Assembly (NCBI GenBank): GCA_947258795.1
Contig: CAMYJU010000010.1
Span: 1 to 38,025 of the forward strand
Reading direction: 5' to 3'
Length of the DNA stretch: 38,025 bases
DNA from: an uncultured Gammaproteobacteria bacterium
Lineage (GTDB): Bacteria > Pseudomonadota > Gammaproteobacteria > DRJJ01
Shown here: one piece after another, positions 13,364-37,900 of the stretch
How the letters are laid out: the number at the start of each line of letters is the position of its first letter
Numbering within the stretch: position 1 is the stretch's first letter
The notes under the pieces: model-generated
Told to the model about the DNA's origin: nothing
Databases searched by the model: none
The model's input: the letters and a program-made list of their open reading frames with translations, nothing else
Translations under genes and position numbers: made by a program

Positions 13364-14713
13364 GTGTCCACTATTGAACAGGAAGTCGCAGACGCACCAG
13401 CCCCGGTCTCATTCACGGAAGCTTTTCTCTATTGGCTAAAACTGGGTTTTATCAGTTTTGGTGGGCCGGCAGGCCAGATCAGCATGATGCACCAGGAGCT
13501 GGTTGAAAAACGCCGCTGGATATCCGAGCATCGGTTTTTGCACGCATTGAATTACACAATGGTACTACCCGGACCGGAGGCCCAGCAACTGGCCACCTAC
13601 ATCGGCTGGCTCATGCACGGCGTTTGGGGAGGCATCATGGCCGGGGTGCTATTTGTTTTACCTTCCCTGTTCATCCTGATCGCACTGACCTGGGTCTACC
13701 TGGCTTATGGAAACCTGCCAACGGTTGAAGGCATTTTATATGGCATCAAGCCTGCCGTAACAGCGATCGTTGTATTTGCGGCGTATCGTATCGGATCTCG
13801 CGCCCTGAAGAACAACATCTTGCGCCTGATGGCACTGCTGGCCTTTGTCGCCATATTCGCACTGGATGTACCGTTCCCGTATATCGTACTGGCGGCAGGC
13901 ATCATCGGTTTTGTCGGTTCGCATTATGCGCCTGAATATTTCCGCGCCGGCGGCCATCATGCCGAATCAGACAAAGATTATGGACCTGCGCTCATTGACG
14001 ATGATACCCCTGTACCTGAACACGCCCGCTTTAAATGGGTCCGGTTGATTATGTATGCGTTCGTTGGGCTGCTGATTTGGGTAGCGGTAATGACTGCCCT
14101 CGCAGCAAACTATGGCTGGGAAGGCACACTCACCCAGATGGGATGGTTCTTTACTAAGGCGGCACTGGTCACCTTCGGTGGCGCCTATGCGGTATTGCCC
14201 TATGTCTACCAGGGCGGTGTGGAACACTATGCCTGGCTGAGCGGCACGCAGATGATCGATGGCCTGGCCCTGGGTGAAACGACACCTGGCCCACTGATCA
14301 TGGTGGTCGCGTTCGTCGGTTTTGTCGGCGGCTGGACCAGGGAAATCTTTGGCCCCGAACTGTTACCGCTGGCCGGCGCGGCCGGTGCCGGTATCGCCAC
14401 GCTGTTTACCTTCCTGCCCTCTTTCCTGTTCATACTGCTGGGTGGCCCGTCGGTTGAAGCAACCCGGCACGATATCAAGTTCACCGCGCCTTTAACCGGT
14501 ATTACCGCCGCGGTGGTCGGTGTTATTCTGAACCTGGCCGTGTTCTTCGCCTATCATGTGTTATGGCCCGCAGGATTCGACGCCTCGTTCGAATGGGCCG
14601 CGATGGTCATCGGTGCACTGGCCTTTATTGCACTGTTCAGATTAAAAATGGGTATCGTCACCGTAATCGGGATCTGTGCTGCACTGGGTCTTGGCTACTC
14701 CCTGCTTTTATAA
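13364..14713 (+). CDS. chrA: Chromate transporter family protein (ChrA-like, two-domain)
   Basis: This 449-residue membrane protein starts with GTG. It has the two homologous halves of long-chain ChrA proteins. The first opens FTEAFLYWLKLGFISFGGPA near residue 17, followed by HALNYTMVLPGPEAQQLATY. The second has WFFTKAALVTFGGAYAVLPY near residue 261, followed by DGLALGETTPGPLIMVVAFV. The FGG and PGP motifs of both halves are intact. Experimentally studied members extrude chromate, while many genomic ones have unknown substrates. No chrB or chrC gene is nearby, so chromate resistance is not certain. It is followed by 433 bases holding the control region of the hydrogenase operon. Confidence 0.9.
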   Translation: MSTIEQEVADAPAPVSFTEAFLYWLKLGFISFGGPAGQISMMHQELVEKRRWISEHRFLHALNYTMVLPGPEAQQLATYIGWLMHGVWGGIMAGVLFVLPSLFILIALTWVYLAYGNLPTVEGILYGIKPAVTAIVVFAAYRIGSRALKNNILRLMALLAFVAIFALDVPFPYIVLAAGIIGFVGSHYAPEYFRAGGHHAESDKDYGPALIDDDTPVPEHARFKWVRLIMYAFVGLLIWVAVMTALAANYGWEGTLTQMGWFFTKAALVTFGGAYAVLPYVYQGGVEHYAWLSGTQMIDGLALGETTPGPLIMVVAFVGFVGGWTREIFGPELLPLAGAAGAGIATLFTFLPSFLFILLGGPSVEATRHDIKFTAPLTGITAAVVGVILNLAVFFAYHVLWPAGFDASFEWAAMVIGALAFIALFRLKMGIVTVIGICAALGLGYSLLL

Positions 14714-15146: not shown

Positions 15147-16268
15147 ATGGCTGAAAACGAATTCGATTTTTCAGGGCTGGAAAAACGTCTGAGTGTCTCT
15201 CGCCGGACGTTTCTGAAATTCTGCGCAGGTGTGGCCGCTTCGCTGGGCCTGCCGGGCCATGCCGCTATGGCCATGGCGGCAGCAGTTGCCGATCCAAAAA
15301 AACGTCCTCCGGTCATCTGGCTGCATGGCCAGGAGTGTACCGGTCCGACCGAGGCCCTGCTGCGTTCCGAGCAACCCAGTCTGGAACACCTGATCCTGGA
15401 CCTGATTTCCCTGGACTATCACCAGACCCTGGATAGCGGCGCCGGCCACCAGGTTGAGGAGATCAAGAAAAAATCCATGCAGGAAAACAAAGGCAAGTAC
15501 CTGCTAGTGATCGAGGGTGCGATACCGGTCAAGGACGATGGCATTTACTGCAAGATCGCCGGTGAGACCATGCTCGACCTGACCCACGAGGCGGCTGAAC
15601 ATGCGGCGGCGATCGTTGCCTATGGCTCCTGTGCCAGCTGGGGCGGTGTGCAGGCGGCCTCGCCGAACCCGACCGGCGCACAGGGTGCGCCGCAAGTCCT
15701 GAAAGGCAAGACCGTGGTCACCATACCCGGCTGTCCGCCCAACCCGGCCAACTTCATTGGCACCGTGCTGTATTTTGTCACCTATGGCAAGCTGCCACCG
15801 ATCGATGAATATGGCCGTCCGAAATGGGCCTATGGTCGCCTGGTTCATGAAAACTGCTACCGCCGTCCGCATTTTGATGCCGGGCGTTTTGCGACCGAAT
15901 TCGGGGACGAGGGACATCGCAAGGGCTGGTGTCTGTACAAGCTCGGCTGCAAGGGTCCGGAGACCTATAACAACTGTCCCAGCCTGGAATACAACAATGT
16001 CGGTGGCAATGTCTGGCCGATCGGTGTCGGTCATCCCTGCTTTGGCTGTTCTGAACAGGGGGTCGGCTTCGAAAAACCGATGTTCAGTCTGTCCAGGGTG
16101 CTGACCCATGCACCGCCGAACATGTTCCCGGAAATCGAATCACGTGAAGACGTCAGCGGCATGTCAACCACCGCCGCGGCACTGACCGGCGCGGCAGTTG
16201 GTGCAGTGGTTGGTGCAACCGCGATGGCGGCCAAAAAGCTGAATGAGAAAGAAGGCGATCAGGACTGA
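15147..16268 (+). CDS. hybO: [NiFe]-hydrogenase small subunit, HybO-like (group 1c), altered proximal-cluster motif
   Basis: This 373-residue electron-transfer subunit of an uptake hydrogenase has a Tat signal, SRRTFLKF (twin Arg at 19-20). It directs the folded heterodimer across the membrane, and a weakly hydrophobic C-terminal segment near residues 335-357 may anchor it. Cluster ligands visible are C64, C162 and C196 (proximal), H234, C237, C262 and C268 (distal), and C277, C298 and C301 (medial [3Fe-4S]). The family motif C-T-G-C is here C-T-G-P: residue 67, the second proximal ligand, is proline (codon CCG at 15345-15347). Motifs such as FDAGRFATEFGDEGHRKGWC closely resemble E. coli HybO. 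GGAGGA precedes the ATG by six bases. It is first gene of the operon, followed by hybA-, hybB- and hybC-like genes. Confidence 0.95.
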   Translation: MAENEFDFSGLEKRLSVSRRTFLKFCAGVAASLGLPGHAAMAMAAAVADPKKRPPVIWLHGQECTGPTEALLRSEQPSLEHLILDLISLDYHQTLDSGAGHQVEEIKKKSMQENKGKYLLVIEGAIPVKDDGIYCKIAGETMLDLTHEAAEHAAAIVAYGSCASWGGVQAASPNPTGAQGAPQVLKGKTVVTIPGCPPNPANFIGTVLYFVTYGKLPPIDEYGRPKWAYGRLVHENCYRRPHFDAGRFATEFGDEGHRKGWCLYKLGCKGPETYNNCPSLEYNNVGGNVWPIGVGHPCFGCSEQGVGFEKPMFSLSRVLTHAPPNMFPEIESREDVSGMSTTAAALTGAAVGAVVGATAMAAKKLNEKEGDQD

Positions 16269-16277
16269 GGGGGCACT

Positions 16278-17249
16278 ATGAAACGCAGAGACTTTCTTAA
16301 GCTGACGGCAGGCGGTACGGCCGCTTTGGCCTGTGGTGTCGCCGAGGCAAGACCGAACCTCGAAGCGAACGACAACGCCATCGGCATGCTATATGACTCC
16401 ACGCTTTGTGTCGGTTGCAAGGCCTGTGTAGCCAAGTGCAAGGAGGTCAACAACATGCCGCCGGAAATTGATGGCGACAAGCTGGCCTGGGATTCGGCAC
16501 GCGATCTGTCTGACAAGACCCATAATGTGATCAAGGTGTACAAAAACGGCACCGCCACCGTCAAGGATGCCGAGATCGATGGTTACTGTTTTGAAAAACG
16601 CAGTTGTATGCACTGTGTCGATCCCGGTTGCGTGTCGGTATGCCCGTGTACGGCCATGCGCATCGATGCCAAAACCGGCATCGTCACCCACCACCCGGAG
16701 GTCTGCATCGGCTGCCGTAACTGCATGGTCGGCTGCCCCTATAACGTACCGCAGTTTGAATACGACAATGTGTTCGGCCAGATCCAGAAATGTGAAATGT
16801 GTAATCAGCCCGGTGTCGAACGTATCGACAAGGGCATGATGACCGGCTGTGCCGAGGCCTGTCCGACCGGCGCGACCCTGTTCGGCACCCGTGAAACCCT
16901 GCTTGATGAAGCCAAACGCCGTATGGCACTGAAACCCGGTGAGATCTACAACTACCCCGTCGGTGATGTGCGCAAACCCGACAAGCATCATGAAAAGAAG
17001 GTGCCGGAATACAAACAGCATATCTGGGGCGAGAAGGAGGCCGGTGGCACCAATGTCATGCACATTTCATCGATACCATTCGACAAGCTGGGTATGCCAC
17101 CACTGGAAGAACGCTCGGCGGCCTCGGTTGCAGAGACCGTACAGCATACGGTGTACAACTTTATGGCGCTACCCGCGATCGCACTGGCCGGTCTGGCCTT
17201 TGTCGTAAATCGCAATATCGATGACGATGATGATGGAGGTGACGCATGA
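16278..17249 (+). CDS. hybA: Hydrogenase ferredoxin-type subunit, HybA-like
   Basis: This 323-residue protein has a short Tat signal, MKRRDFLKL, and four 4Cys motifs, starting at CVGCKACVAKC (near residue 44), CMHCVDPGCVSVCPC (near 112), CIGCRNCMVGCP (near 143) and CEMCNQPG...GCAEACP (near 174). Together they can hold four [4Fe-4S] clusters. A hydrophobic segment near residues 295-310 can anchor it in the membrane. In Hyb-type enzymes this subunit wires the small subunit to the NrfD-type quinone-reacting subunit, and the gene order here (hybO-hybA-hybB-hybC) supports that. The start lies nine bases after the hybO stop with GGGGGC before it. Its stop overlaps the hybB start. Confidence 0.93.
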   Translation: MKRRDFLKLTAGGTAALACGVAEARPNLEANDNAIGMLYDSTLCVGCKACVAKCKEVNNMPPEIDGDKLAWDSARDLSDKTHNVIKVYKNGTATVKDAEIDGYCFEKRSCMHCVDPGCVSVCPCTAMRIDAKTGIVTHHPEVCIGCRNCMVGCPYNVPQFEYDNVFGQIQKCEMCNQPGVERIDKGMMTGCAEACPTGATLFGTRETLLDEAKRRMALKPGEIYNYPVGDVRKPDKHHEKKVPEYKQHIWGEKEAGGTNVMHISSIPFDKLGMPPLEERSAASVAETVQHTVYNFMALPAIALAGLAFVVNRNIDDDDDGGDA

Positions 17250-18388
17250 GCGCATATCAGCCACTGGGCGGACGCATATTCACCAAACCGTTTATTGTAC
17301 TGTTCATTATCTTTCTGATCGGTTGCTTTTTCATGTACCAGCGCTTTGTCGTTGGTGGCATGGGTGCGGTCAGCAACCTGAATGACGGTTACGCCTGGGG
17401 TATCTGGGTGGTTTACGACATCATGATCGGCACCGCGTTTGCGTGCGGTGGCTATGCACTGGCATTCACCGTCTATGTGTTTAACAAGGGTAAATATCAC
17501 CCGCTGGTACGCCCGGCGGTACTGGCCAGTCTGCTCGGCTATGCACTGGGTGGTTTCAGCGCGTTTTTCGACATGGGTCGTTTCTGGCAGTTCTATGAAA
17601 TCTTTCTGCCCGGCAACTGGAATTTCAATTCAGCCATGCTCGAGGTGGGCCTGTGCGTAACCGCCTACATCATTATTTTGGCACTGGAGTTTGCACCCGC
17701 ACTGCTCGAACGCCTGGGCATGCATGGACTGCTGAAGGCGCTGAACAAGGTACTGTTCCTGATCATCGCGCTCGGTGTGTTGCTACCAACCATGCACCAG
17801 TCCTCTTTGGGTTCCCTGCTGATCGCAATGGGCCACAAGGTGCACCCGTTATGGCAAAGCATGCACCTGCAACCACTGTTTGCATTACTGAGCGCATTGA
17901 TCATGGGTTTCTCGATCGTGGTGTTCGAGGCCTCTTCGGCCGCGGTCGGCTTCGGGCGCAAGCCGGAGACGCCGCTACTGGCCGGTCTTGGTAAAGCAGT
18001 CATCGGGTTGCTGGCAGCATTCCTGGTCATTCGCCTGATCGTACTGATGGTTCAGGGCAGACTGGGACTGATCTTTGCCGGTGATTTTGCCTCGATGATG
18101 TTCATACTCGAGACCGCCCTGTTTGTGGTCCCGTTGTATATCCTGCTGTCGCCGACGCGCAGTCGCCGTGGCAGCCAGTTGTTGATTGCCGCGGTCAGCA
18201 TGTTACTCGGCGGTGCTATGTATCGCTTCGATGCCTACCTGATTACCTATAACCCGGGTCCCGGCTACAGCTATTTCCCGTCCGCACCGGAGATCATGAT
18301 CACGCTTGGCATCATTGCGCTGGAAATCATGATCTACCTGGTCGCGGTCAAGCTGCTGCCGGTACTGCATCGCGAAGAACACGCCTGA
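17246..18388 (+). CDS. hybB: Hydrogenase membrane subunit, HybB-like (NrfD/PsrC family)
   Basis: This 380-residue integral membrane protein has about ten helices. It starts with a short cytoplasmic segment and a first helix, FIVLFIIFLIGCFFMYQRF. The NLNDGYAWGIWVVYDI segment near residue 42 and YALGGFSAFFDMGRFWQFYE near residue 92 are typical of HybB/NrfD proteins, which react with quinone without haem. It would pass electrons from HybA into the quinone pool, or use the proton-motive force in reverse. The gene overlaps hybA by four bases (ATGA), implying translational coupling. It is followed by the large-subunit gene after 27 bases. Confidence 0.92.
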   Translation: MSAYQPLGGRIFTKPFIVLFIIFLIGCFFMYQRFVVGGMGAVSNLNDGYAWGIWVVYDIMIGTAFACGGYALAFTVYVFNKGKYHPLVRPAVLASLLGYALGGFSAFFDMGRFWQFYEIFLPGNWNFNSAMLEVGLCVTAYIIILALEFAPALLERLGMHGLLKALNKVLFLIIALGVLLPTMHQSSLGSLLIAMGHKVHPLWQSMHLQPLFALLSALIMGFSIVVFEASSAAVGFGRKPETPLLAGLGKAVIGLLAAFLVIRLIVLMVQGRLGLIFAGDFASMMFILETALFVVPLYILLSPTRSRRGSQLLIAAVSMLLGGAMYRFDAYLITYNPGPGYSYFPSAPEIMITLGIIALEIMIYLVAVKLLPVLHREEHA

Positions 18389-18415: not shown

Positions 18416-20119
18416 GTGACTACACGTATTACAGTTGATCCGATTACCCGCATCGAGGGGCATCTTCGTATCGATGTTGAGGTGGATAACGGCAAGGTCA
18501 GCAAGGCCTGGTCATCAGGCCAGATGTGGCGTGGCATCGAGAAGATACTGGAAGGCCGTGACCCGCGTGAGGCCTGGAGCTATACACAGCGCTTTTGCGG
18601 TGTCTGCACCACGGTACATGCGATCACCTCAGTGCGCGCAGTCGAAAACGCATTGCAAATGGAAATACCACTCAACGCCCAGTTGATCCGCAACATCATC
18701 CAGACCGCCCATGCCGTCCACGACCATATGGTCCACTTTTATCACTTATCGGCAGTGGACTGGGTCGACGTGGTATCCGCGCTGGATGCCGATCCGGTGG
18801 CAACTGCCAAACTGGCCGAGTCGCTATCGGACTGGCACCTGAACGGACCCCATGAAATGAAGGCGGTACAGGAAAGGCTGAAGACCTTTGTTGGCAGTGG
18901 TCAACTGGGCCCCTTTGCCAGTGGTTACTGGGGACATCCGGCGATGAAGCTGCCCCCTGAAGTCAACCTGCTGGCCGTGGCCCACTACCTGCAAGCGCTG
19001 GATGTGCAGATCCTGGCCAACAAGGTTGTCGCCATCCTCGGCGGCAAGACACCCCATATCCAGAACGTTGCGGTCGGTGGTGTCAGCAACTCGATCGGTC
19101 ATGACGCACCATCGGTACTGAATATCGAACGCCTGATGCTGATCAAGAATTTTATCGACAAGCTCGACCACTTCGTCAAATCCACCTACCTGACCGATGT
19201 ACCCGCAGTGGGTGCGTTCTACCTGGACTGGGCCGGTATCGGCGGTGGTGTGAACAACTATCTGTCGGTACCGGATTGCCCGCAGGATACCAAGGGCACC
19301 CAATTCGACCTGCCCGGCGGTTATATCGACAATGGCGACCTCGCCAGCTTCAAGCCGATTACGACATTTAATGATGAGTATTTCCGTGACGGCGTCGCAG
19401 AGAGCTCCAAACACTCATGGTATACCGGCGACAAGGCCCTGCATCCATGGGAAGGCGAGACCGAACCGCAGTACACCGAGTTCCAGGACGACGGCCAGTA
19501 TTCCTGGGTCAAGTCGCCGACCTTCTATGGCAAACGCGCAGAAGTCGGACCGTTGGCCGATGTGCTGGTAGGTGTTGCTTCAGGCAATGAGCTTTACAAG
19601 AAATACCTGGACCAGGTGATGGGAACCCTGAAGGCCGTGTCCAAAAACCCGGATATCCCGCTGGCTGCGGTACACTCAACCATCGGTCGTCATGCCGCCC
19701 GTGCGGTACGCTGTGCGGTCATGGTGGATACCCTGAAAGACCAATGGCAAAAACTGGTCGACAATATCGGTACCGGTGACCTGGATACCTTCAACCCGCC
19801 GGAGTTCCCGAAGGGCGAGATCAAGGGAGTCGGCTTCCACCAGGCGCCGCGTGGCACCCTGTCTCACTGGGTGGTAATCGAAGACGCCAAGATCAAGAAT
19901 TACCAGGCCGTGGTACCCAGTACCTGGAATGCCGGTCCGCGCGATGCCGATGACGAGCCCGGTCCGTACGAGTCCTCCTTACTGGATAACCCGGTAGCCG
20001 ACCCGGAGAAACCACTGGAGATCCTGCGTACGGTGCATTCCTTCGATCCCTGTATTGCCTGTGCCATCCACATGGTGGATACCGAGCAGAAAGAGATCGT
20101 CAAGGTCAAGGCCATGTAA
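18416..20119 (+). CDS. hybC: [NiFe]-hydrogenase catalytic large subunit, HybC-like
   Basis: This 567-residue subunit binds the NiFe(CN)2CO site. The N-terminal motif RFCGVCTTVHA supplies C61 and C64. The C-terminal motif DPCIACAIH supplies C546 and C549 and ends at H552, followed by a 15-residue tail (MVDTEQKEIVKVKAM) that the endopeptidase encoded next should remove after nickel insertion. The start is GTG with GAGGAGAAG immediately upstream. There is no signal peptide, as expected for a subunit carried by the Tat signal of its partner. All four nickel-binding cysteines are present, so the active site looks normal despite the odd proximal cluster in the small subunit. Confidence 0.96.
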   Translation: MTTRITVDPITRIEGHLRIDVEVDNGKVSKAWSSGQMWRGIEKILEGRDPREAWSYTQRFCGVCTTVHAITSVRAVENALQMEIPLNAQLIRNIIQTAHAVHDHMVHFYHLSAVDWVDVVSALDADPVATAKLAESLSDWHLNGPHEMKAVQERLKTFVGSGQLGPFASGYWGHPAMKLPPEVNLLAVAHYLQALDVQILANKVVAILGGKTPHIQNVAVGGVSNSIGHDAPSVLNIERLMLIKNFIDKLDHFVKSTYLTDVPAVGAFYLDWAGIGGGVNNYLSVPDCPQDTKGTQFDLPGGYIDNGDLASFKPITTFNDEYFRDGVAESSKHSWYTGDKALHPWEGETEPQYTEFQDDGQYSWVKSPTFYGKRAEVGPLADVLVGVASGNELYKKYLDQVMGTLKAVSKNPDIPLAAVHSTIGRHAARAVRCAVMVDTLKDQWQKLVDNIGTGDLDTFNPPEFPKGEIKGVGFHQAPRGTLSHWVVIEDAKIKNYQAVVPSTWNAGPRDADDEPGPYESSLLDNPVADPEKPLEILRTVHSFDPCIACAIHMVDTEQKEIVKVKAM

Positions 20120-20121
20120 AC

Positions 20122-20694
20122 ATGCCGGGTAGCGAAATCATGACAGAAAAAAAACACAGGGTACTGATTATCGGCATGGGCAATGTGCTGATGCAGGACG
20201 AAGGGGTTGGCGTACGCGCCGTAGAGGAGCTGGAGAATCGCTATCTGATACCCGACAGCGTCAGGGTGGTCGATGGCGGTACCACCGGCATGGAACTGTT
20301 CGACCCGATTCGACACTGCGAACACCTGATCGTCGCCGATGCGGTCAACACCGGTGACCCGTATGGAACCCTGGTGCGCATTGCCAATCAAGACGTGCCG
20401 GCGTTTTTTCAGACCAAACTCTCGAACCATCAACTTGGGCTGTCTGACCTGCTCGCGCTGCTCAGCCTGAAAGGTGAAACACCCGCACATGTCGCGATCA
20501 TCGGCATGGTACCGCACTCACTCGAACAACGGCTGGGCCTGACTGCCGAGGCCGAGGCCGGTCTGGATAACATGGTCGACATGCTGGTGCAGGAACTGGC
20601 CGGACTCGGTATCGAGCTACAGCAACGTAGCGAAGTACGAATCGGTCACTGGCGCAGGGAAGCCGAGCGTGAGGAACAGGCCACATGTGCATAG
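20122..20694 (+). CDS. hybD: Hydrogenase maturation endopeptidase, HybD-like
   Basis: This product of about 190 residues belongs to the HybD/HupD/HyaD family, which cuts the C-terminal tail off the nickel-loaded large subunit. The nickel-probing residues are visible: the Glu in GMGNVLMQDEGVGVRAVEEL, the Asp in VDGGTTGMELFD, and the His in KLSNHQLGLSDLL. The upstream ATG gives a six-residue extension (MPGSEI). The start at 20140 (MTEKKHRVLIIGMGN) fits the family length better, and neither has a strong ribosome binding site. The gene follows hybC after two bases and overlaps the next gene by ten, which supports co-translation. Confidence 0.93.
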   Translation: MPGSEIMTEKKHRVLIIGMGNVLMQDEGVGVRAVEELENRYLIPDSVRVVDGGTTGMELFDPIRHCEHLIVADAVNTGDPYGTLVRIANQDVPAFFQTKLSNHQLGLSDLLALLSLKGETPAHVAIIGMVPHSLEQRLGLTAEAEAGLDNMVDMLVQELAGLGIELQQRSEVRIGHWRREAEREEQATCA

Positions 20695-20972
20695 GCATAC
20701 CTGTGCAGATTATCGAGGCAGGCGAATTTATGGCGCAGGCCAAAGGCCGCAACGGCATACAGGCGGTGAATATGATGTTGATCGGCAGCCAGCCGGTCGG
20801 CACCTGGGTGCTGAATTTTCTTGGCTCGGCACGTGAAGTCATCAGCGAACAGGACGCGATCAATATCAACAAGGCGCTCGACGGACTGGAGGCGATCATG
20901 CAGGGTGAACAGGACGTCGATGTCGATCACTATTTCCCCGGTCTGGGCGCGACTTCGGAGGCAGGCTTATGA
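20685..20972 (+). CDS. hupF: HupF/HypC-family hydrogenase chaperone
   Basis: This 95-residue protein starts MCIGIPVQIIEAGEF, with the Cys2 that HypC-family proteins use to hold the Fe(CN)2CO unit or the apo-large subunit. The body (VNMMLIGSQPVGTWVLNFLG, then SAREVISEQDAININKALDG) is typical of the longer HupF branch rather than HypC itself, and a distinct HypC is encoded at 28428. It probably serves the large subunit encoded just upstream. HupF has been proposed to protect large-subunit maturation under oxygen in rhizobia. The gene overlaps hybD (ten bases) and hybE (four bases). Confidence 0.88.
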   Translation: MCIGIPVQIIEAGEFMAQAKGRNGIQAVNMMLIGSQPVGTWVLNFLGSAREVISEQDAININKALDGLEAIMQGEQDVDVDHYFPGLGATSEAGL

Positions 20973-21580
20973 ATGATCCACAAACCGCGGCCGCACAGGT
21001 ACAACAGGCCTTCGAAAAGATCTGGCATGAACAAATGGCCGGTATCGATATCCTGAACCCTCGGCTCAGCGTACAAACCCTCGGCTTTCAGCCTTACCGC
21101 AATCGTGTGATCGGTCTGGTGATCACACCCTGGCTGATGGCGCTGATCATGCTGCCGGGTGAGGACGATGACTGGACGGAACTGGAGCTGGGTAAAAAAA
21201 AGCCGCACCGGTTTCCATCAGGCACCCGAAAATTCATGGTCAACGAGTTCGACGGTATCGGTGTATGCCAGACCCATTCACTGTATTCACCCATGCATGA
21301 GTTCGAAAGCCAGGATCATGCACTGGCCGCCGCACAGGGGGTTCTTGATACCCTGATGGTCGAAGGTGATCCGAGCATGGAAGAACCCGCCGCCCATGAG
21401 CCGCCCGCCTGCACCCGGCGTGGCGAGGCCACGGCCGAGGTCCGGCTTGAGGATTTTGCGACCATAGAGCCAACCCAGCCTGTTGCACCGACCGCTTGCG
21501 CATCACCTGGCGGCACGCAGTCAAACAAGACCCTGTCGCGCCGCGACTTACTACGCGGCAGTTTCCTGCGACAGGGCTGA
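20969..21580 (+). CDS. hybE: HybE/HupJ-family hydrogenase assembly chaperone
   Basis: This 203-residue cytoplasmic protein has the HybE/HupJ core: an N-terminal helix, VQQAFEKIWHEQMAGIDILN, then LGFQPYRNRVIGLVITPWLM near residue 37 and a LPSGTRKF-like FPSGTRKFMVNEFDGIGVCQ near residue 86. HybE is thought to keep the small-subunit precursor from early Tat export until it has its clusters. After a Pro/Ala-rich linker the protein ends with LSRRDLLRGSFLRQG, which resembles a twin-arginine motif but lies at the C-terminus. The start overlaps the hupF stop by four bases. The nickel-permease-like gene follows after eight bases. Confidence 0.9.
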   Translation: MNDPQTAAAQVQQAFEKIWHEQMAGIDILNPRLSVQTLGFQPYRNRVIGLVITPWLMALIMLPGEDDDWTELELGKKKPHRFPSGTRKFMVNEFDGIGVCQTHSLYSPMHEFESQDHALAAAQGVLDTLMVEGDPSMEEPAAHEPPACTRRGEATAEVRLEDFATIEPTQPVAPTACASPGGTQSNKTLSRRDLLRGSFLRQG

Positions 21581-30864: not shown

Positions 30865-32571
30865 ATGCGTATCCTGTTTCTCACTCACTCGTTCAACAGC
30901 CTCAGCCAGCGCTTGTACGTCGAGTTGCAGGCACGTGGCCATGAACTGTCGGTCGAATTCGATATCAACGATGCAGTCAGCGAACAGGCCGTTGAACTGT
31001 TCCAACCTGAGCTGATCCTCGCGCCGTTTCTGAAACGCGCGATACCCGAGTCGATCTGGCGTAAACAGGTATGCCTGATAGTGCATCCCGGCATCAAGGG
31101 TGATCGTGGTCCGTCTGCACTGGACTGGGCCATCCTGAACCGCGAGACACGCTGGGGTGTGACCGTACTGCAGGCCAATGCCGACATGGATGCGGGTGAC
31201 ATCTGGGCCAGCAGTGAATTCGATATGCGTGACGCGACCAAGGCCAGCCTGTACCGCAACGAGGTCACAGAGGCAGCGATGCGTGCGGTAGTGCTTGCGG
31301 TCCAGCGTTTTGAGCAGGGTGGATACACCCCGCAAGCCCTGCACGATATCCAGCACAGCCTGCATGGGCGACTGCGGCCGTTGGTGCAGCAATCGAACCG
31401 TCATATCGACTGGCAACACGACACTAGCGCCACCGTGTTACGCAAGATACGCAGCGGCGATGGCTTCCCCGGCGTGCGTGACTGCCTGTTCGGGCGCGAG
31501 CTGTTTCTGTACGACGCGCGGCCGGAACACACCTTGTGCGGACGACCCGGTGACCTGATTGCGCGCTGTGGCGGCGCGGTCTGCCGGGCGACCACCGATG
31601 GCGCGGTATGGATCGGTCACTTGCGCGACAATCAGGCGGCGCATCCATTCAAGTTGCCAGCCACGCGACTGCTTGGTGACAGGGTCAGCGCATTACCGGA
31701 ACTCAGCCCGGGGCCACGTAGCGGTTATCGTGACATCTGGTATGAACAACACGGCGATGTCGGTTACCTGCATTTTCCTTTCTATAACGGCGCCATGAGT
31801 ACGCAACAATGCGAACGACTGCGTCAGGCCTACATCGATGCGAAACAGCGCCCCACCCGTGTGATCGTACTCATGGGCGGACCCGATTACTGGTGTAATG
31901 GCATGCACCTGAACCTGATCGAGGCCGCCGACAGTGCCGCCGATGAATCCTGGCGTAACATCAACGCCATCGATGACCTCGCACTGGAGATTATCAACAC
32001 CGACACGCAACTGACCATCGCGGCGCTGCAGGGTAACGCCGGTGCCGGGGGTATGTTCCTGGCCCGCGCCGCCGACCAGGTCTGGGCACGCCAGGGTGTG
32101 GTCCTTAATCCGCACTACAAGGATATGGGCAACCTGTACGGCTCTGAATACTGGACCTATCTGTTACCGCGTTTTGCCGGGCAGGAAAAAGCAGAGCGCA
32201 TCAGCAGCGCACGCCTGCCGATGGGCACAGACGAGGCGCTGTCGCTGGGCCTGCTGGATGCCGCCTATGCAACTGATGTTGACGAGTTTGTACAGCTCAC
32301 ACAGCAACGCGCTACGTCCCTGGCCGCGGCCGATAATTTTGAAACACACACACATCAGAAACGTCAGCAGCGACAGGCTGACGAGCAGCACAAACCCCTG
32401 GCGCACTACCGGCAGCAGGAACTGGAACGCATGCGCGTCAACTTTTACGGCTTTGATCCCAGTTACCATGTGGCGCGTTACAATTTTGTCTACAAGATAT
32501 CACGCTCGCGCACACCCCTGACCATCGCAAGCCACCGTCGAACCGATACCCCCCTGCGGAGGGCGATATGA
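30865..32571 (+). CDS. hypX: HypX (HoxX): CO-forming hydrogenase maturation protein
   Basis: This 568-residue two-domain protein has an N-terminal formyltransferase-like part, MRILFLTHSFNSLSQRLYVE onwards. It includes the folate-binding core LIVHPGIKGDRGPSALDWAI near residue 72 and VTVLQANADMDAGDIWAS. The C-terminal part resembles enoyl-CoA hydratase/isomerase (crotonase fold), with VIVLMGGPDYWCNGMHLNLI near residue 333 and ALQGNAGAGGMFLARAADQ near residue 389. In Aquifex and Ralstonia HypX moves a formyl group from formyl-tetrahydrofolate to CoA and releases CO, giving the active-site CO ligand in the presence of oxygen. It sits nine bases after hypE and overlaps hoxA by four. Its presence argues that this hydrogenase is matured under oxic or micro-oxic conditions. 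Confidence 0.93.
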   Translation: MRILFLTHSFNSLSQRLYVELQARGHELSVEFDINDAVSEQAVELFQPELILAPFLKRAIPESIWRKQVCLIVHPGIKGDRGPSALDWAILNRETRWGVTVLQANADMDAGDIWASSEFDMRDATKASLYRNEVTEAAMRAVVLAVQRFEQGGYTPQALHDIQHSLHGRLRPLVQQSNRHIDWQHDTSATVLRKIRSGDGFPGVRDCLFGRELFLYDARPEHTLCGRPGDLIARCGGAVCRATTDGAVWIGHLRDNQAAHPFKLPATRLLGDRVSALPELSPGPRSGYRDIWYEQHGDVGYLHFPFYNGAMSTQQCERLRQAYIDAKQRPTRVIVLMGGPDYWCNGMHLNLIEAADSAADESWRNINAIDDLALEIINTDTQLTIAALQGNAGAGGMFLARAADQVWARQGVVLNPHYKDMGNLYGSEYWTYLLPRFAGQEKAERISSARLPMGTDEALSLGLLDAAYATDVDEFVQLTQQRATSLAAADNFETHTHQKRQQRQADEQHKPLAHYRQQELERMRVNFYGFDPSYHVARYNFVYKISRSRTPLTIASHRRTDTPLRRAI

Positions 32572-34049
32572 CTACACAAGCAACCATCCTGGTCGTTGAT
32601 GACGAGGTACGCAGCCTGGAGACGATACAACGTATCCTGGAAGATGATTTCGATGTCAAAACCGCATCCACGATCAGCGAGGCCGAACAGATACTGCAAC
32701 GCGAATGGGTGCAGATCATCGTCTGTGACCAGCGCATGCCGGAAATGACCGGTGTCGAATTCCTGAAGCGGGTACGTGAACAGTGGCCCGACCTGATACG
32801 CATGATCATTTCCGGTTATACCGACTCTGAGGACATAATCAGCGCGGTCAATGAAGCCGGCATCTATCAATACATTACCAAGCCCTGGCATCCCGACCAT
32901 CTGATCATCACCCTGAACAATGCCGCACGCATGTTCGAGCTGCAACGCCAGAACGAGGCACTGTCGGTCGAACTGAAAAAGACACCTGGGCAGCTCGAAC
33001 AATCGATGAACCGTAAAAGCATCGAGCTGCGGGAAAACTACCAGTGTGATGACGGCATGGTACGCACGCCGGACAGTTGCATGAATGCGGTTTGCACAAA
33101 GATCAGGCGCATCGCACCCTATCATGTGTCCGTGTTGTTAAGCGGCGAATCAGGTACCGGCAAGGAGCTGGCCGCGCGCGCACTGCACTACAACAGTTTG
33201 CGTTGGAACAAACCCTTCATTGCCGAAAACTGTGGCGCACTGCCTGATGAACTGCTCGAGAGCGAACTGTTTGGCTACAAGCGTGGCGCGTTTACCGGCG
33301 CCGTCGAGGACCGCGTCGGCCTGTTCGAGCGCGCCAATGGCGGTACCGTGTTTCTCGACGAGATCGGTGATGTGTCGCCGGCGTTCCAGGTCAAGTTGCT
33401 ACGTGTGCTGCAGGAAGGTGAAATCCGCCCACTGGGTAGCGGCCGTACCCGCCAGGTCGATGTACGGATCGTCGCCGCGACCAACAAGGACCTCGAGGCC
33501 GAAGTACATGCCGGCCGTTTTCGCGAGGACCTGTACTACCGGCTGGCCACGGTGAGCCTGGACCTGCCACCGTTACGTGAACACCCGGAGGATATCCCGT
33601 TACTGGCCAACACCCTGTTACAGGACGCGATCAATGATCTTGGCAAACAGGTTCAGGGGTTCAGCGCCGAGGCGCTGGCCTGTATGCAGTCCTATCACTG
33701 GCCGGGCAATGTGCGTGAGCTGCAAAACGAGGTGCACTGCATGCTGGTGATGGGCAATGAGGATATGCTCGGCGCCGAGTTGTTGACCCCGCGCATCCTG
33801 CGCTCGCTGTCTCCGGATGGACTTTCCTGCGAGGAAGATATCGATACACCGCTGGGCTCGCTGAAGGACCGGGTCGAGTCGCTGGAATCCAGCATCCTGC
33901 GCGAGACCCTGATCAGGCACCGCTGGAACAAGAGCAGTGCCGCCAGGGAACTGGGCCTGTCGCGCGTGGGCCTGCGCAGCAAGCTCGAGCGCTATGGTCT
34001 GGAAAAAGTCGAACAGCTGAACACCGGAGCCCAGGATGCCTACCGTTAA
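32568..34049 (+). CDS. hoxA: HoxA/HupR-type sigma-54-dependent response regulator
   Basis: This 493-residue NtrC-family activator has a receiver domain at residues 5-120 with acidic D11 and D12 and the phosphoacceptor D54 ([13 protein letters not shown]). Its AAA+ domain has Walker A GESGTGKE near residue 193 and the intact sigma-54 contact GAFTGA near residue 240. A C-terminal Fis-type helix-turn-helix ([20 protein letters not shown]) completes it. It should drive sigma-54 promoters, two of which I find at the heads of the hydrogenase operons. In HoxA/HupR systems the unphosphorylated form is often the active one. It overlaps both hypX and hoxJ, so it is co-translated with maturation and sensing genes. 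Confidence 0.93.
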
Positions 34050-35439
34050 GAAATCCGCCGGCAAGCCCCTGGATGAGACCACCGCCAGCCTGATCGACCG
34101 CGCGGGCGTGACCGAGTCCCTGCAACTGGCCCCGTCTACCGAGAGCGTGTGGATCGACGTGATCCGCAAGATGGACTCGGTGTATGCCGACCTGGTGCGC
34201 TACCAGGTCGAGCTGGAAGAAAAAAACACGGCACTGGAGCAGGCCGACCAGTTCATCAACAGTATACTGTCGGCGATGACCGATGTACTGATCGCCTGTG
34301 ATACCAAGGGCAGGATCCTGCAGATCAATGCCGCGCTGGAAAAACTGACCGGCAAACCGGCAGCGTCGTTTATCGATCAACCGATCGAACAGATGTTTGC
34401 CGTGGATTCGAAAATAAAAATGGAGGCCTGTCAGCAAATACCGGAAAACGAGTTCCTGATCGATTATGAGGTTAACATCCTGTGTGCGGATGGCTCGAGC
34501 ACCCCACTGGCGATGAACTGTTCATCACGCTATGACCATATGGGTACAATGGTCGGTATGGTATTGATCGGGCGCCCGGTCGGTGAACTGCGCCACGCCT
34601 ATGATGACCTGAATCGCGCGCATATCAAACTGCAGCAGACCCAGCAACAACTGGTGCATTCCGAAAAAATGGCATCGCTGGGCCGGTTGGTGGCCGGTGT
34701 TGCACATGAGTTGAACAACCCGATCAGTGTCGTGTTCGGCAATATGCATGCATTGCAACGCTACGGTAGCCGCATGACCGAATACCTGCACGAAGTGGAT
34801 GCGCATCATGTTAGCGCTGAACTGGCGCAATTGCGCAGTGAACTGAAAATCGACCGTATCATCGATGATATGCAACCACTGATCGAGGGTACACTGGAGG
34901 CCTCCGAACGCGTCAGTGATATCGTCCAGGACCTGCGCCGTTATTCCGGTGCACAGGCAGAAGGCATCAGTGAATTCGATCTTTCGGCGGTGATCATCAA
35001 GGCGGTCGAGTGGGTGACCCGAGCCAGCCGCATCAAACCGCAGGTCGAGTACGAACTGCCGCAACAATTGCTGATCGAGGGACGCAAGGGCCAGGTACAC
35101 CAGATCCTGGTCAACCTGGTACAGAATGCGCTGGATGCGATGCAGGATCAGGCCAGCCCGCAACTGAGCCTGCATTGTCAGACCAGCGGTGATCGTATCC
35201 GGGTCGAGGTTATCGACCAGGGCCCGGGCATTCCGGAAAGCGACCTGCCGCATATCTTTGATCCGTTCTTCACCAGCAAGCCGGTCGGTCAGGGCACCGG
35301 GCTCGGACTCTATATCAGTTATGGCCTGGCCAGCGATCTCGGTGGTGACCTGCACGCGGAAAACCTGGAGCAGGGCGGCGTGAAATTTACCCTGACGCTA
35401 CCCGTGTCAATGAACCAGAAATTATCGGGGACAGGCTGA
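34036..35439 (+). CDS. hoxJ: HoxJ/HupT-type PAS sensor histidine kinase
   Basis: This 467-residue soluble kinase has an N-terminal coiled segment (VRYQVELEEKNTALEQADQF), then a PAS domain about residues 73-190 (INSILSAMTDVLIACDTKGR onward). A linker helix precedes the H-box VAGVAHELNNPISVV with phospho-acceptor H224. The C-terminal ATPase domain has an N-box (HQILVNLVQNALDAMQD), DQGPGIPESDLPHIFDPFFT and GTGLGLYISYG. It lacks membrane segments, as in HoxJ/HupT, which receive the H2 signal by binding the cytosolic sensor hydrogenase. It overlaps hoxA by 14 bases and hoxB by one. Confidence 0.92.
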   Translation: MPTVKKSAGKPLDETTASLIDRAGVTESLQLAPSTESVWIDVIRKMDSVYADLVRYQVELEEKNTALEQADQFINSILSAMTDVLIACDTKGRILQINAALEKLTGKPAASFIDQPIEQMFAVDSKIKMEACQQIPENEFLIDYEVNILCADGSSTPLAMNCSSRYDHMGTMVGMVLIGRPVGELRHAYDDLNRAHIKLQQTQQQLVHSEKMASLGRLVAGVAHELNNPISVVFGNMHALQRYGSRMTEYLHEVDAHHVSAELAQLRSELKIDRIIDDMQPLIEGTLEASERVSDIVQDLRRYSGAQAEGISEFDLSAVIIKAVEWVTRASRIKPQVEYELPQQLLIEGRKGQVHQILVNLVQNALDAMQDQASPQLSLHCQTSGDRIRVEVIDQGPGIPESDLPHIFDPFFTSKPVGQGTGLGLYISYGLASDLGGDLHAENLEQGGVKFTLTLPVSMNQKLSGTG

Positions 35440-36455
35440 TGGCCCAGCACAGGGACAGTAAACTGAACCTGTTATGGCTGCAGTCCGGCGGTTGTGGTGG
35501 CTGCACGCTGTCGTTGCTCGGCGCCGAGTCACCGGACCTGTTGACCACATTCGACAGCGCGGGCATCAGGCTGTTATGGCACCCGAGTCTGAGCGAGCAA
35601 AGCGCATCCGGCCTGCATGAACTGTTGCAGCAGATTATTAATGGCGATATCCGACTCGATCTGTTTTGCCTCGAAGGTTCGGTCATCCAGGGTCCTGACG
35701 GCAGCGGCCTGTTCCACCGCCTTTCCGGTAGCGATCGCCCGATGCGTGACTGGATACATGATCTGTCAAAAGTCGCCCATTACTCGATCGCGATCGGCAG
35801 TTGCGCGGCATTCGGCGGTATCACATCAGGCGGCGGCAACCCGAGCGAGGCCTGTGGCCTGCAGTTTGAAAACAGCGTGCCTGGTGGCCTGCTGGGTGAA
35901 TCTTTCAATGCTATCGAAGGTCTGCCGGTGATCAACATCGCCGGTTGTCCGGTACATCCAAATTGGGTCACAGAGAGCTTGTTACAAATCGCGCACGGCG
36001 ATATGAACCGGCAGGAGCTGGATGAGTTCAACCGCCCACGCAGTTACACCGATCATCTGGTGCATCATGCCTGCCCACGTAATGAATTTTATGAATTCAA
36101 GGCCAGTGCGGCGAAGCCCTCCGATCTAGGCTGCCTGATGGAAAATATGGGCTGTCTCGGTACGCAGGCACATGCCGATTGCAATATCCGCCCGTGGAAT
36201 GGTGAAGGGTCCTGCATCCGCGGCGGCTATGCCTGTATCAACTGCACCCAGCCCGGATTCCAGGAACCCGACTACAGTTTTACCACAACGCAGAAGATTG
36301 CCGGCATCCCGGTCGGCCTACCGACCGATATGCCCAAGGCCTGGTTTATTGCACTGGCATCACTGTCCAAGGCGGCGACGCCGAAACGCCTGCGCGAAAA
36401 TGCACACGCCGACCATATCCTGGTTACCCCGGGCAACAGGGACAAGGATAAATGA
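35439..36455 (+). CDS. hoxB: H2-sensing (regulatory) hydrogenase small subunit, HoxB/HupU
   Basis: This 338-residue small subunit without a Tat signal is the hallmark of cytosolic sensor hydrogenases. It opens MAQHRDSKLNLLWLQSGGC, so the proximal motif is C-G-G-C with both cysteines present. Further ligands lie in IGSCAAFGG, NIAGCPVHPNW, DHLVHHACPR, DLGCLMENMGCLG, ADCNIRPWNG and CINCTQPGF. It forms the H2 sensor with HoxC and contacts the kinase HoxJ. Unlike the catalytic small subunit at 15147 it has a complete ligand set, a useful internal contrast. It overlaps hoxC by four bases. Confidence 0.93.
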   Translation: MAQHRDSKLNLLWLQSGGCGGCTLSLLGAESPDLLTTFDSAGIRLLWHPSLSEQSASGLHELLQQIINGDIRLDLFCLEGSVIQGPDGSGLFHRLSGSDRPMRDWIHDLSKVAHYSIAIGSCAAFGGITSGGGNPSEACGLQFENSVPGGLLGESFNAIEGLPVINIAGCPVHPNWVTESLLQIAHGDMNRQELDEFNRPRSYTDHLVHHACPRNEFYEFKASAAKPSDLGCLMENMGCLGTQAHADCNIRPWNGEGSCIRGGYACINCTQPGFQEPDYSFTTTQKIAGIPVGLPTDMPKAWFIALASLSKAATPKRLRENAHADHILVTPGNRDKDK

Positions 36456-37900
36456 GCCGTCGCATCATCGGTCCGTTCAATCGCGTTGAAGGTGATCTCG
36501 AGGTACAAATCGAGTTCAGCGACGCAAAGGTCAGCAAGGCCTGGGTGGTTTCACCGCTGTACCGTGGCTTTGAGCAGATGTTGCACGGCAAGGACCCGAT
36601 GGATGCACTGGTCTATGTCCCGCGTATCTGCGGGATCTGTTCGGTTGCACAATCTGTGGCCGCGGCCCGTGCGATTGCCCATGCCCAAGGCGTAGACATG
36701 CCAGCCAATGGTGAGCTGGCCACCAACCTGGTTCTGGCGACCGAGAATCTCGCGGACCATCTGACTCACTTCTACCTGTTCTTCATGCCGGACTTTGCCC
36801 GTGAAACCTATGCCAACGAAGACTGGTTTACAGATGCACAGCAACGCTTCAAGGCGGTGGAAGGCAGTGCGGCACGTGAGGTATTGCCGGCGCGCGCCGA
36901 GTTCATGCATCTGATGGGACTACTGGCCGGCAAGTGGCCACACAGCCTGGCCTTACAACCGGGCGGCACCAGCCGTTCACTGGAGACACAGGAAAAGGCC
37001 AGGATCAGCAGCATTCTGTACAGCTTCAGGCAGTTTCTGGAACAGGTGCTGTTCGGCGATATGCTCGAGAACGTGATCGCGCTGGACTCGGTCGCGGCAC
37101 TGGACGACTGGGTCACACAGGCGGCACCGGCGAGCAGCGACTTTCGGCATTTCCTGCATATCGCACAGGCGCTGGAGCTGCAATCACTCGGTCGCGGGAC
37201 CGACCGTTTCATGAGTTACGGCGTCTATGCACTCGAGGGCAAACCACTGTTTGCGGCCGGCACCTGGGACGGTGACGCCGGTGAACTCGACCAGGCCGTG
37301 ATACGCGAGGATATCAGTCATAGCTGGATGCACCACCAGGCCGAAGCCAAACACCCGTATGACGGTGTGACCCAGCCATCCGCCGATCAGGCTGACGCCT
37401 ATACCTGGTGCAAGGCACCGCGCCTGGATGGCCAGGTCATGGAGGTCGGTGCACTGGCACGCCAGGTGGTCAATGGCCACCCGTTGATACGCGACCTGGT
37501 GGCACAATCAGGCGGCAATGTACGCAACCGCGTCATTGCGAGACTGCTGGAGATTGCGCTGGTCGTCGTGGAAATGGAGCAATGGACCAGCCGGATCCGA
37601 CCGCGCGAACCGTTCTGTACCCATGCGGCCCTGCCGGATGAGGCACAGGGTTACGGCATGATCGAGGCGGCACGCGGCAGCCTGGGACACTGGATGCGCC
37701 TGAAGAAAGGCCGCATCCTGAACTATCAGATTATTGCGCCGACCACCTGGAACTTCTCACCGCGCGATGCCGGTGGCACGCCCGGTGCGCTGGAACAGGC
37801 CCTTATCGGTGCACCATTGCGTGATGGCGAGCAAGACCCCGTGTCTGTGCAGCACATCGTGCGCTCGTTTGATCCCTGCATGGTTTGTACGGTGCACTGA
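36452..37900 (+). CDS. hoxC: H2-sensing (regulatory) hydrogenase large subunit, HoxC/HupV
   Basis: This 482-residue large subunit carries [17 protein letters not shown] near residue 59 and ends directly with DPCMVCTVH. No C-terminal tail needs cutting, which is typical of HoxC/HupV proteins that mature without an endopeptidase. The four nickel cysteines are present. Compared with catalytic enzymes, the L1 motif has SVAQ in place of the T-x-H-A type, as in other sensors. Its role is to bind H2 and signal through HoxJ. Its stop overlaps the hypF start by one base. Confidence 0.93.

Follow-up and report, generated by a model that had tools for sequence, protein, structure and literature searches.

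The proximal iron-sulfur cluster of [NiFe]-hydrogenases sets the electron path to the NiFe site and is one of the principal known means of tuning O2 tolerance and catalytic bias. In E. coli hydrogenase-2 (Hyd-2; HybOABC, group 1c) the cluster has four Cys. The O2-tolerant MBH and Hyd-1 enzymes (group 1d) depart from this Cys4 [4Fe-4S] arrangement with a Cys6 [4Fe-3S] cluster and the extra Cys 19 and 120, and in super-oxidised MBH a backbone N-H binds Fe4. The medial cluster is [3Fe-4S], with Pro238 at its site in D. fructosovorans.

Residues other than Cys are on record at the second proximal ligand. Asp and Asn occur there naturally in G. metalloreducens and N. punctiforme, and the C81D/N variants of A. 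macleodii supported hydrogenase activity with a non-Cys residue at this ligand (PMC4070099, including its Table 1). In Huc of Mycobacterium smegmatis (group 2a), where HucS has Asn, all three clusters are [3Fe-4S], the proximal one by cryo-EM and EPR, and its authors place the operation of [3Fe-4S] clusters ~250 mV above that of [4Fe-4S] (PMC10017518). An engineered C12P in HupS of Nostoc punctiforme has also been listed (PMC9919214).

The hyb operon and its small subunit

The window (the whole stretch of DNA that was analysed, 38,025 nucleotides from an uncultured gammaproteobacterium) contains an operon like hybOABCDE of E. coli, whose first gene encodes a Tat-exported [NiFe]-hydrogenase small subunit. 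This subunit differs from that of Hyd-2 in having Pro for the second proximal Cys. It was aligned with its relatives in a set of 27 sequences with Pro at this position, 69 with Cys and 7 with Asn (hereafter Pro, Cys and Asn rows). Among the Pro rows a few are near-identical and one pair is protein-identical. The features referred to below are the following.

15147..16268, + strand: hybO-like small subunit, 373 aa, twin-arginine signal (TIGR00391, 474.2 bits, cut-off 179.5)
15336..15347, + strand: codons of C64-T-G-P67 (TGT ACC GGT CCG), P67 being the second proximal-cluster ligand position
15423..15434, + strand: codons of Q93-T-L-D96 (residues 93-96), Q93 and D96 fixed in 27/27 Pro rows
15513..15515, + strand: codon of Glu123 (HoxK Glu76), a possible carboxylate ligand, Glu in 27/27 of the clade
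16017..16019, + strand: codon of the invariant Pro291, by its motif the Pro238-type residue that fills the fourth corner at the medial [3Fe-4S] cluster
16278..17249, + strand: hybA-like Fe-S subunit (NF008134, 444.9 bits, cut-off 263)
17246..18388, + strand: hybB-like quinone-reactive membrane subunit (NF008133, 512.9 bits, cut-off 450)
18416..20119, + strand: hybC-like catalytic large subunit with six near-diagnostic positions
20122..20694, + strand: hybD-like maturation endopeptidase
20969..21580, + strand: hybE-like assembly chaperone (TIGR03993, 136.4 bits, cut-off 78.5)

An earlier note on this DNA had read residues 64-67 as C-T-G-P, with a proximal Cys ligand replaced by Pro. The alignment upheld this reading: Pro67 (codon CCG at 15345-15347) pairs with the second Cys of ECTGC in the solved Hyd-2 chains, and a constant offset of 47 between HoxK and window numbering makes it Cys20 in D. 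gigas/HoxK numbering. A Pro side chain cannot ligate iron. The proximal Cys ligands left are C64, C162 and C196, and these are intact together with H234, C237, C262 and C268 and with C277, C298 and C301. The note was thus right that the other ligands are intact, though there are ten of them and not nine; none of the ten is missing from any of the 27 Pro or 69 Cys rows. In an AF2 model of the small subunit, with a mean pLDDT of 75.6 and lower confidence near residues 71-80, strands E55-60 and E88-92 precede positions 67 and 93-96, respectively, and one edge of the alpha/beta-domain sheet probably carries both positions.

The closest solved chains were those of E. coli Hyd-2 (5xvb and 6ehq), which have identical distal and medial ligands. 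The TIGR00391 score, the nesting of the sequence beside Cys-type Hyb relatives and the HybA and HybB partners, both above their NCBIfam cut-offs, place the enzyme with the group 1c Hyb type. However, the small and the large subunit fell below the Hyd-2 equivalog cut-offs (NF007779, 504.7 against 659 bits; NF007778, 877.7 against 969 bits), and Pro67 in 27/27 departs from the four-Cys proximal site. Judged by sequence, the window enzyme is a variant of the Hyb type and not a standard member. It shares with Huc a non-Cys residue at the matching ligand, but this is Pro and not Asn, HucS stood far lower in the list of solved chains, and the two differ in group and architecture, the window enzyme keeping a distal His/Cys3 site where Huc has 3Fe clusters throughout. 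The Cys6 enzymes depart from Cys4 in the other direction: all Pro rows have Gly at both extra-Cys positions (Gly66 and the 120 position) and one Cys fewer. Natural Asp and Asn replace the same ligand as Pro67 and can in principle ligate, which Pro cannot. The HupS C12P variant is likewise a proximal Cys to Pro change, but it is man-made, affects the first ligand and has Asn already at the second.

The gene order hybO-A-B-C-D-E was conserved across the Pro-bearing relatives wherever the contig was long enough, with one exception (L112), in which no hybD or hybE match was found in the stretch read. The suggestion in the earlier note that the operon is functional agrees with this order, with the intact hyb operon of the window and with the presence of ligands and maturation genes. 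Also in the window are hyp genes, two regulators resembling HupR and HupT, and a HupUV-like H2 sensor, a role assigned by resemblance. The regulators and this second, HupUV-like hydrogenase occupy 32568-37900. The small subunit of the latter is closest to HucS, yet it keeps Cys at the proximal ligand (GGCGGC). By analogy, the HupUV-like hydrogenase is probably an H2 sensor controlling the hyb operon. By appearance, a 568-aa ORF that separates the hyp genes from the regulators (30865-32571) resembles HoxX, and an ORF directly upstream of the hydrogenase operon (13364-14713) resembles a ChrA-type chromate transporter. The host genome has dsrA as well as two ccoN genes for cbb3 oxidase, which fit a microaerobic sulfur bacterium.

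Distribution and origin of the Pro

A scan of species genomes recovered 80 related loci. All relatives with more than ~68% identity that included the motif region had Pro, and the remainder had Cys, save for a separate Asn group. Class-wide and phylum-wide searches added further Pro members. The carriers included Thiodiazotropha, Sedimenticola, other gammaproteobacterial MAGs, one alphaproteobacterial MAG and three genomes with magnetosome-type genes. The last three belong to one family outside the window's class and have 9-11 magnetochrome (PF18509) matches each, and one of the three is the single-contig genome mentioned below. The Pro-type hydrogenase thus appears to span marine sulfur bacteria, clam symbionts and magnetotactic cocci, and its presence outside the window's class rules out a recent oddity of a single lineage. 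One further pattern match (L104) was discarded, as tblastn detected no hydrogenase there. Within the window's own order two genomes were sampled, and the second (81% complete) was without the gene.

With the diagnostic columns masked, a single branch set the Pro rows apart from all others in the small-subunit tree (SH-aLRT 98) and likewise their partners in the large-subunit tree (SH-aLRT 99), and the Pro rows again formed one group when only the Pro column was omitted. Their clade adjoins Cys-bearing group 1c relatives. These topologies indicate that the replacement of Cys by Pro arose once, among such relatives. The search for a clade sharing the Pro that the earlier note had proposed therefore yielded one, with 27 members and a single origin. 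Median dN/dS among the Pro rows was ~0.05 in unsaturated pairs, a rough value as many pairs are near synonymous saturation, and the Pro-type small subunit is under strong purifying selection. A pseudogene is ruled out by this selection, the conserved ligands and the clade-wide Pro.

The Hyb small subunit of Ca. Sedimenticola endophacoides (L025) has the Pro, and transcription of a group 1 membrane-bound hydrogenase is documented for this species (PMC6461927). The likely use of the Pro-type enzyme is H2 uptake at low oxygen. In two Pro-bearing genomes a second, Cys-type hydrogenase lies beside the Pro operon: an MBH-like Cys6 enzyme (ECTCC) at L028:2733-5593 and another group 1 type at L026:133-993. 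The Pro member of the latter genome (L026:2663-3778) has GSCACWGG, against GSCASWGG elsewhere, and so an extra Cys two residues past the third proximal ligand.

The seven Asn rows (motif DCAGN, its Asn at the ligand position that Asn also takes in HucS) are group 1 relatives from Chloroflexota, Nitrospirota and Acidobacteriota (L037:13218-14069, L072:3421-4473, L084:7001-7882, L085:5094-6158, L089:7001-7939, L090:7001-7951 and L091:4452-5477). Mostly they formed one clade, with one row apart. These relatives may also have a proximal [3Fe-4S] cluster.

The proximal cluster

Only P67, Q93 and D96 were fixed in all Pro rows of the small-subunit alignment and present in at most 3% of the Cys rows. 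Position 93 corresponds to D. gigas Glu46, which is included in one published proton pathway (PMC3325256); all Cys rows have Glu, Asp or His there. In the large subunit six positions were near-diagnostic (Q96, V114, S226, F246, P263 and K406); at V114, all 48 Cys-type partners have Leu. Since the clade has one origin, such shared changes may reflect ancestry and not function.

We think it rather probable that the membrane-bound [NiFe]-hydrogenase encoded in the window, of Hyb type (group 1c-like), is functional and that its three-Cys proximal site holds a [3Fe-4S] cluster. The pattern of C64, C162 and C196 with a non-ligating Pro67 is present in 27/27 Pro rows, and this cluster type is favoured because of three precedents, namely the medial-site Pro, Huc and HupS C12P. 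The earlier note had proposed a real and functional ligand replacement, with a 3Fe cluster or another fourth ligand, and our results support that view, the cluster type itself still being inferred; the clade-diagnostic Q93 and D96 and the parallel with Huc had escaped the note. On the favoured reading, the second proximal Cys was swapped for Pro together with the fixed Q93 and D96, and C64, C162 and C196 would hold a [3Fe-4S] cluster, an arrangement found already at the medial site, where another Pro is present. Electrons would pass between NiFe, [3Fe-4S], [3Fe-4S] and [4Fe-4S] and on through HybA/HybB to quinone. A high-potential proximal cluster would bias the enzyme to H2 oxidation at higher potential and alter its O2 response in a way that would suit a microaerobic sulfur bacterium. 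Having no backbone N-H, Pro precludes the Fe-N bond known from super-oxidised MBH. The HupS C12P change of Raleiras et al. 2016 reportedly hit the proximal cluster, gave [3Fe-4S] and raised H2 output. That result points the opposite way, to H2 production, and the catalytic bias may thus run in either direction.

The chief alternative, a proximal cluster that is still [4Fe-4S], with its fourth iron on Asp96, Glu123 or water/hydroxide, is possible but in our judgement unlikely; potential and lability would then shift while nuclearity stayed the same. The fixation of D96 in all Pro rows and its absence or near absence from Cys rows are in keeping with such a role, and position 123 is Glu in 27/27 Pro rows against Glu or Asp in Cys rows, although Glu is equally found there in many Cys4 relatives. 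A [4Fe-4S] cluster with an Asp ligand occurs in Pyrococcus ferredoxin (PMC4070099), and a carboxylate as fourth ligand is not far-fetched because Glu76 lies 2.8 A from the displaced Fe4 in a HoxK variant (PMC10583674). On the other hand, Huc has [3Fe-4S] with Asn at this position. To our knowledge position 49 (Asp96) has never been listed as a cluster neighbour, which counts against Asp96 as the ligand. The earlier note had allowed that another nearby Cys might occupy the ligand position. The alignment of 27 Pro and 69 Cys rows contained no clade-specific Cys, and the sole extra Cys conserved in the mature chain, C135 (27/27 Pro rows), occurs just as well in most group 1c relatives of the Cys4 type. 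It aligns with HoxK Cys88, which is not known to be among the six Cys ligands, and we find it scarcely credible that Cys135 moves in to restore an ordinary Cys4 [4Fe-4S] site.

An isolated ligand loss could abolish cluster assembly, leaving the proximal site empty and the enzyme dead or specialised for a non-catalytic role. This is very improbable, given that a deep clade under strong purifying selection has retained every other ligand along with the motifs of the large subunit and the maturation genes, and that transcription of a group 1 membrane-bound hydrogenase is on record for a Pro-bearing relative (PMC6461927). A sequencing or assembly error at the Pro67 codon, for which we found nothing in favour, is practically out of the question. 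The earlier note had already thought a random error unlikely, and Pro in 26 further genomes, one of them a single contig of 4,719,581 bp, makes a Cys codon implausible. All four synonymous codons are in use in the 27 rows (CCC 17, CCG 6, CCT 3, CCA 1), and this clade-wide distribution refutes an error.

Returning to the proximal [3Fe-4S], we tentatively suggest, with rather less confidence than in the cluster type itself, that the clade may represent a third natural route, besides the Cys6 [4Fe-3S] cluster and the all-3Fe relay of Huc. A Pro-defined proximal [3Fe-4S] next to the usual medial [3Fe-4S], with co-evolved E46Q and a new Asp49, would retune catalytic bias and the response to O2 in the microaerobic sulfur bacteria and magnetotactic bacteria that have it. 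Natural Asp and Asn at this ligand were known already, and natural Pro is apparently new: it is not in the survey of natural ligand replacements (PMC4070099 Table 1), and no report of it was found in the largely open-access literature that was searched. A change like the one engineered in HupS has apparently arisen in nature and become fixed in symbionts and in magnetotactic cocci. The clade makes it testable whether a high-potential proximal [3Fe-4S] cluster gives uptake bias or O2 tolerance.
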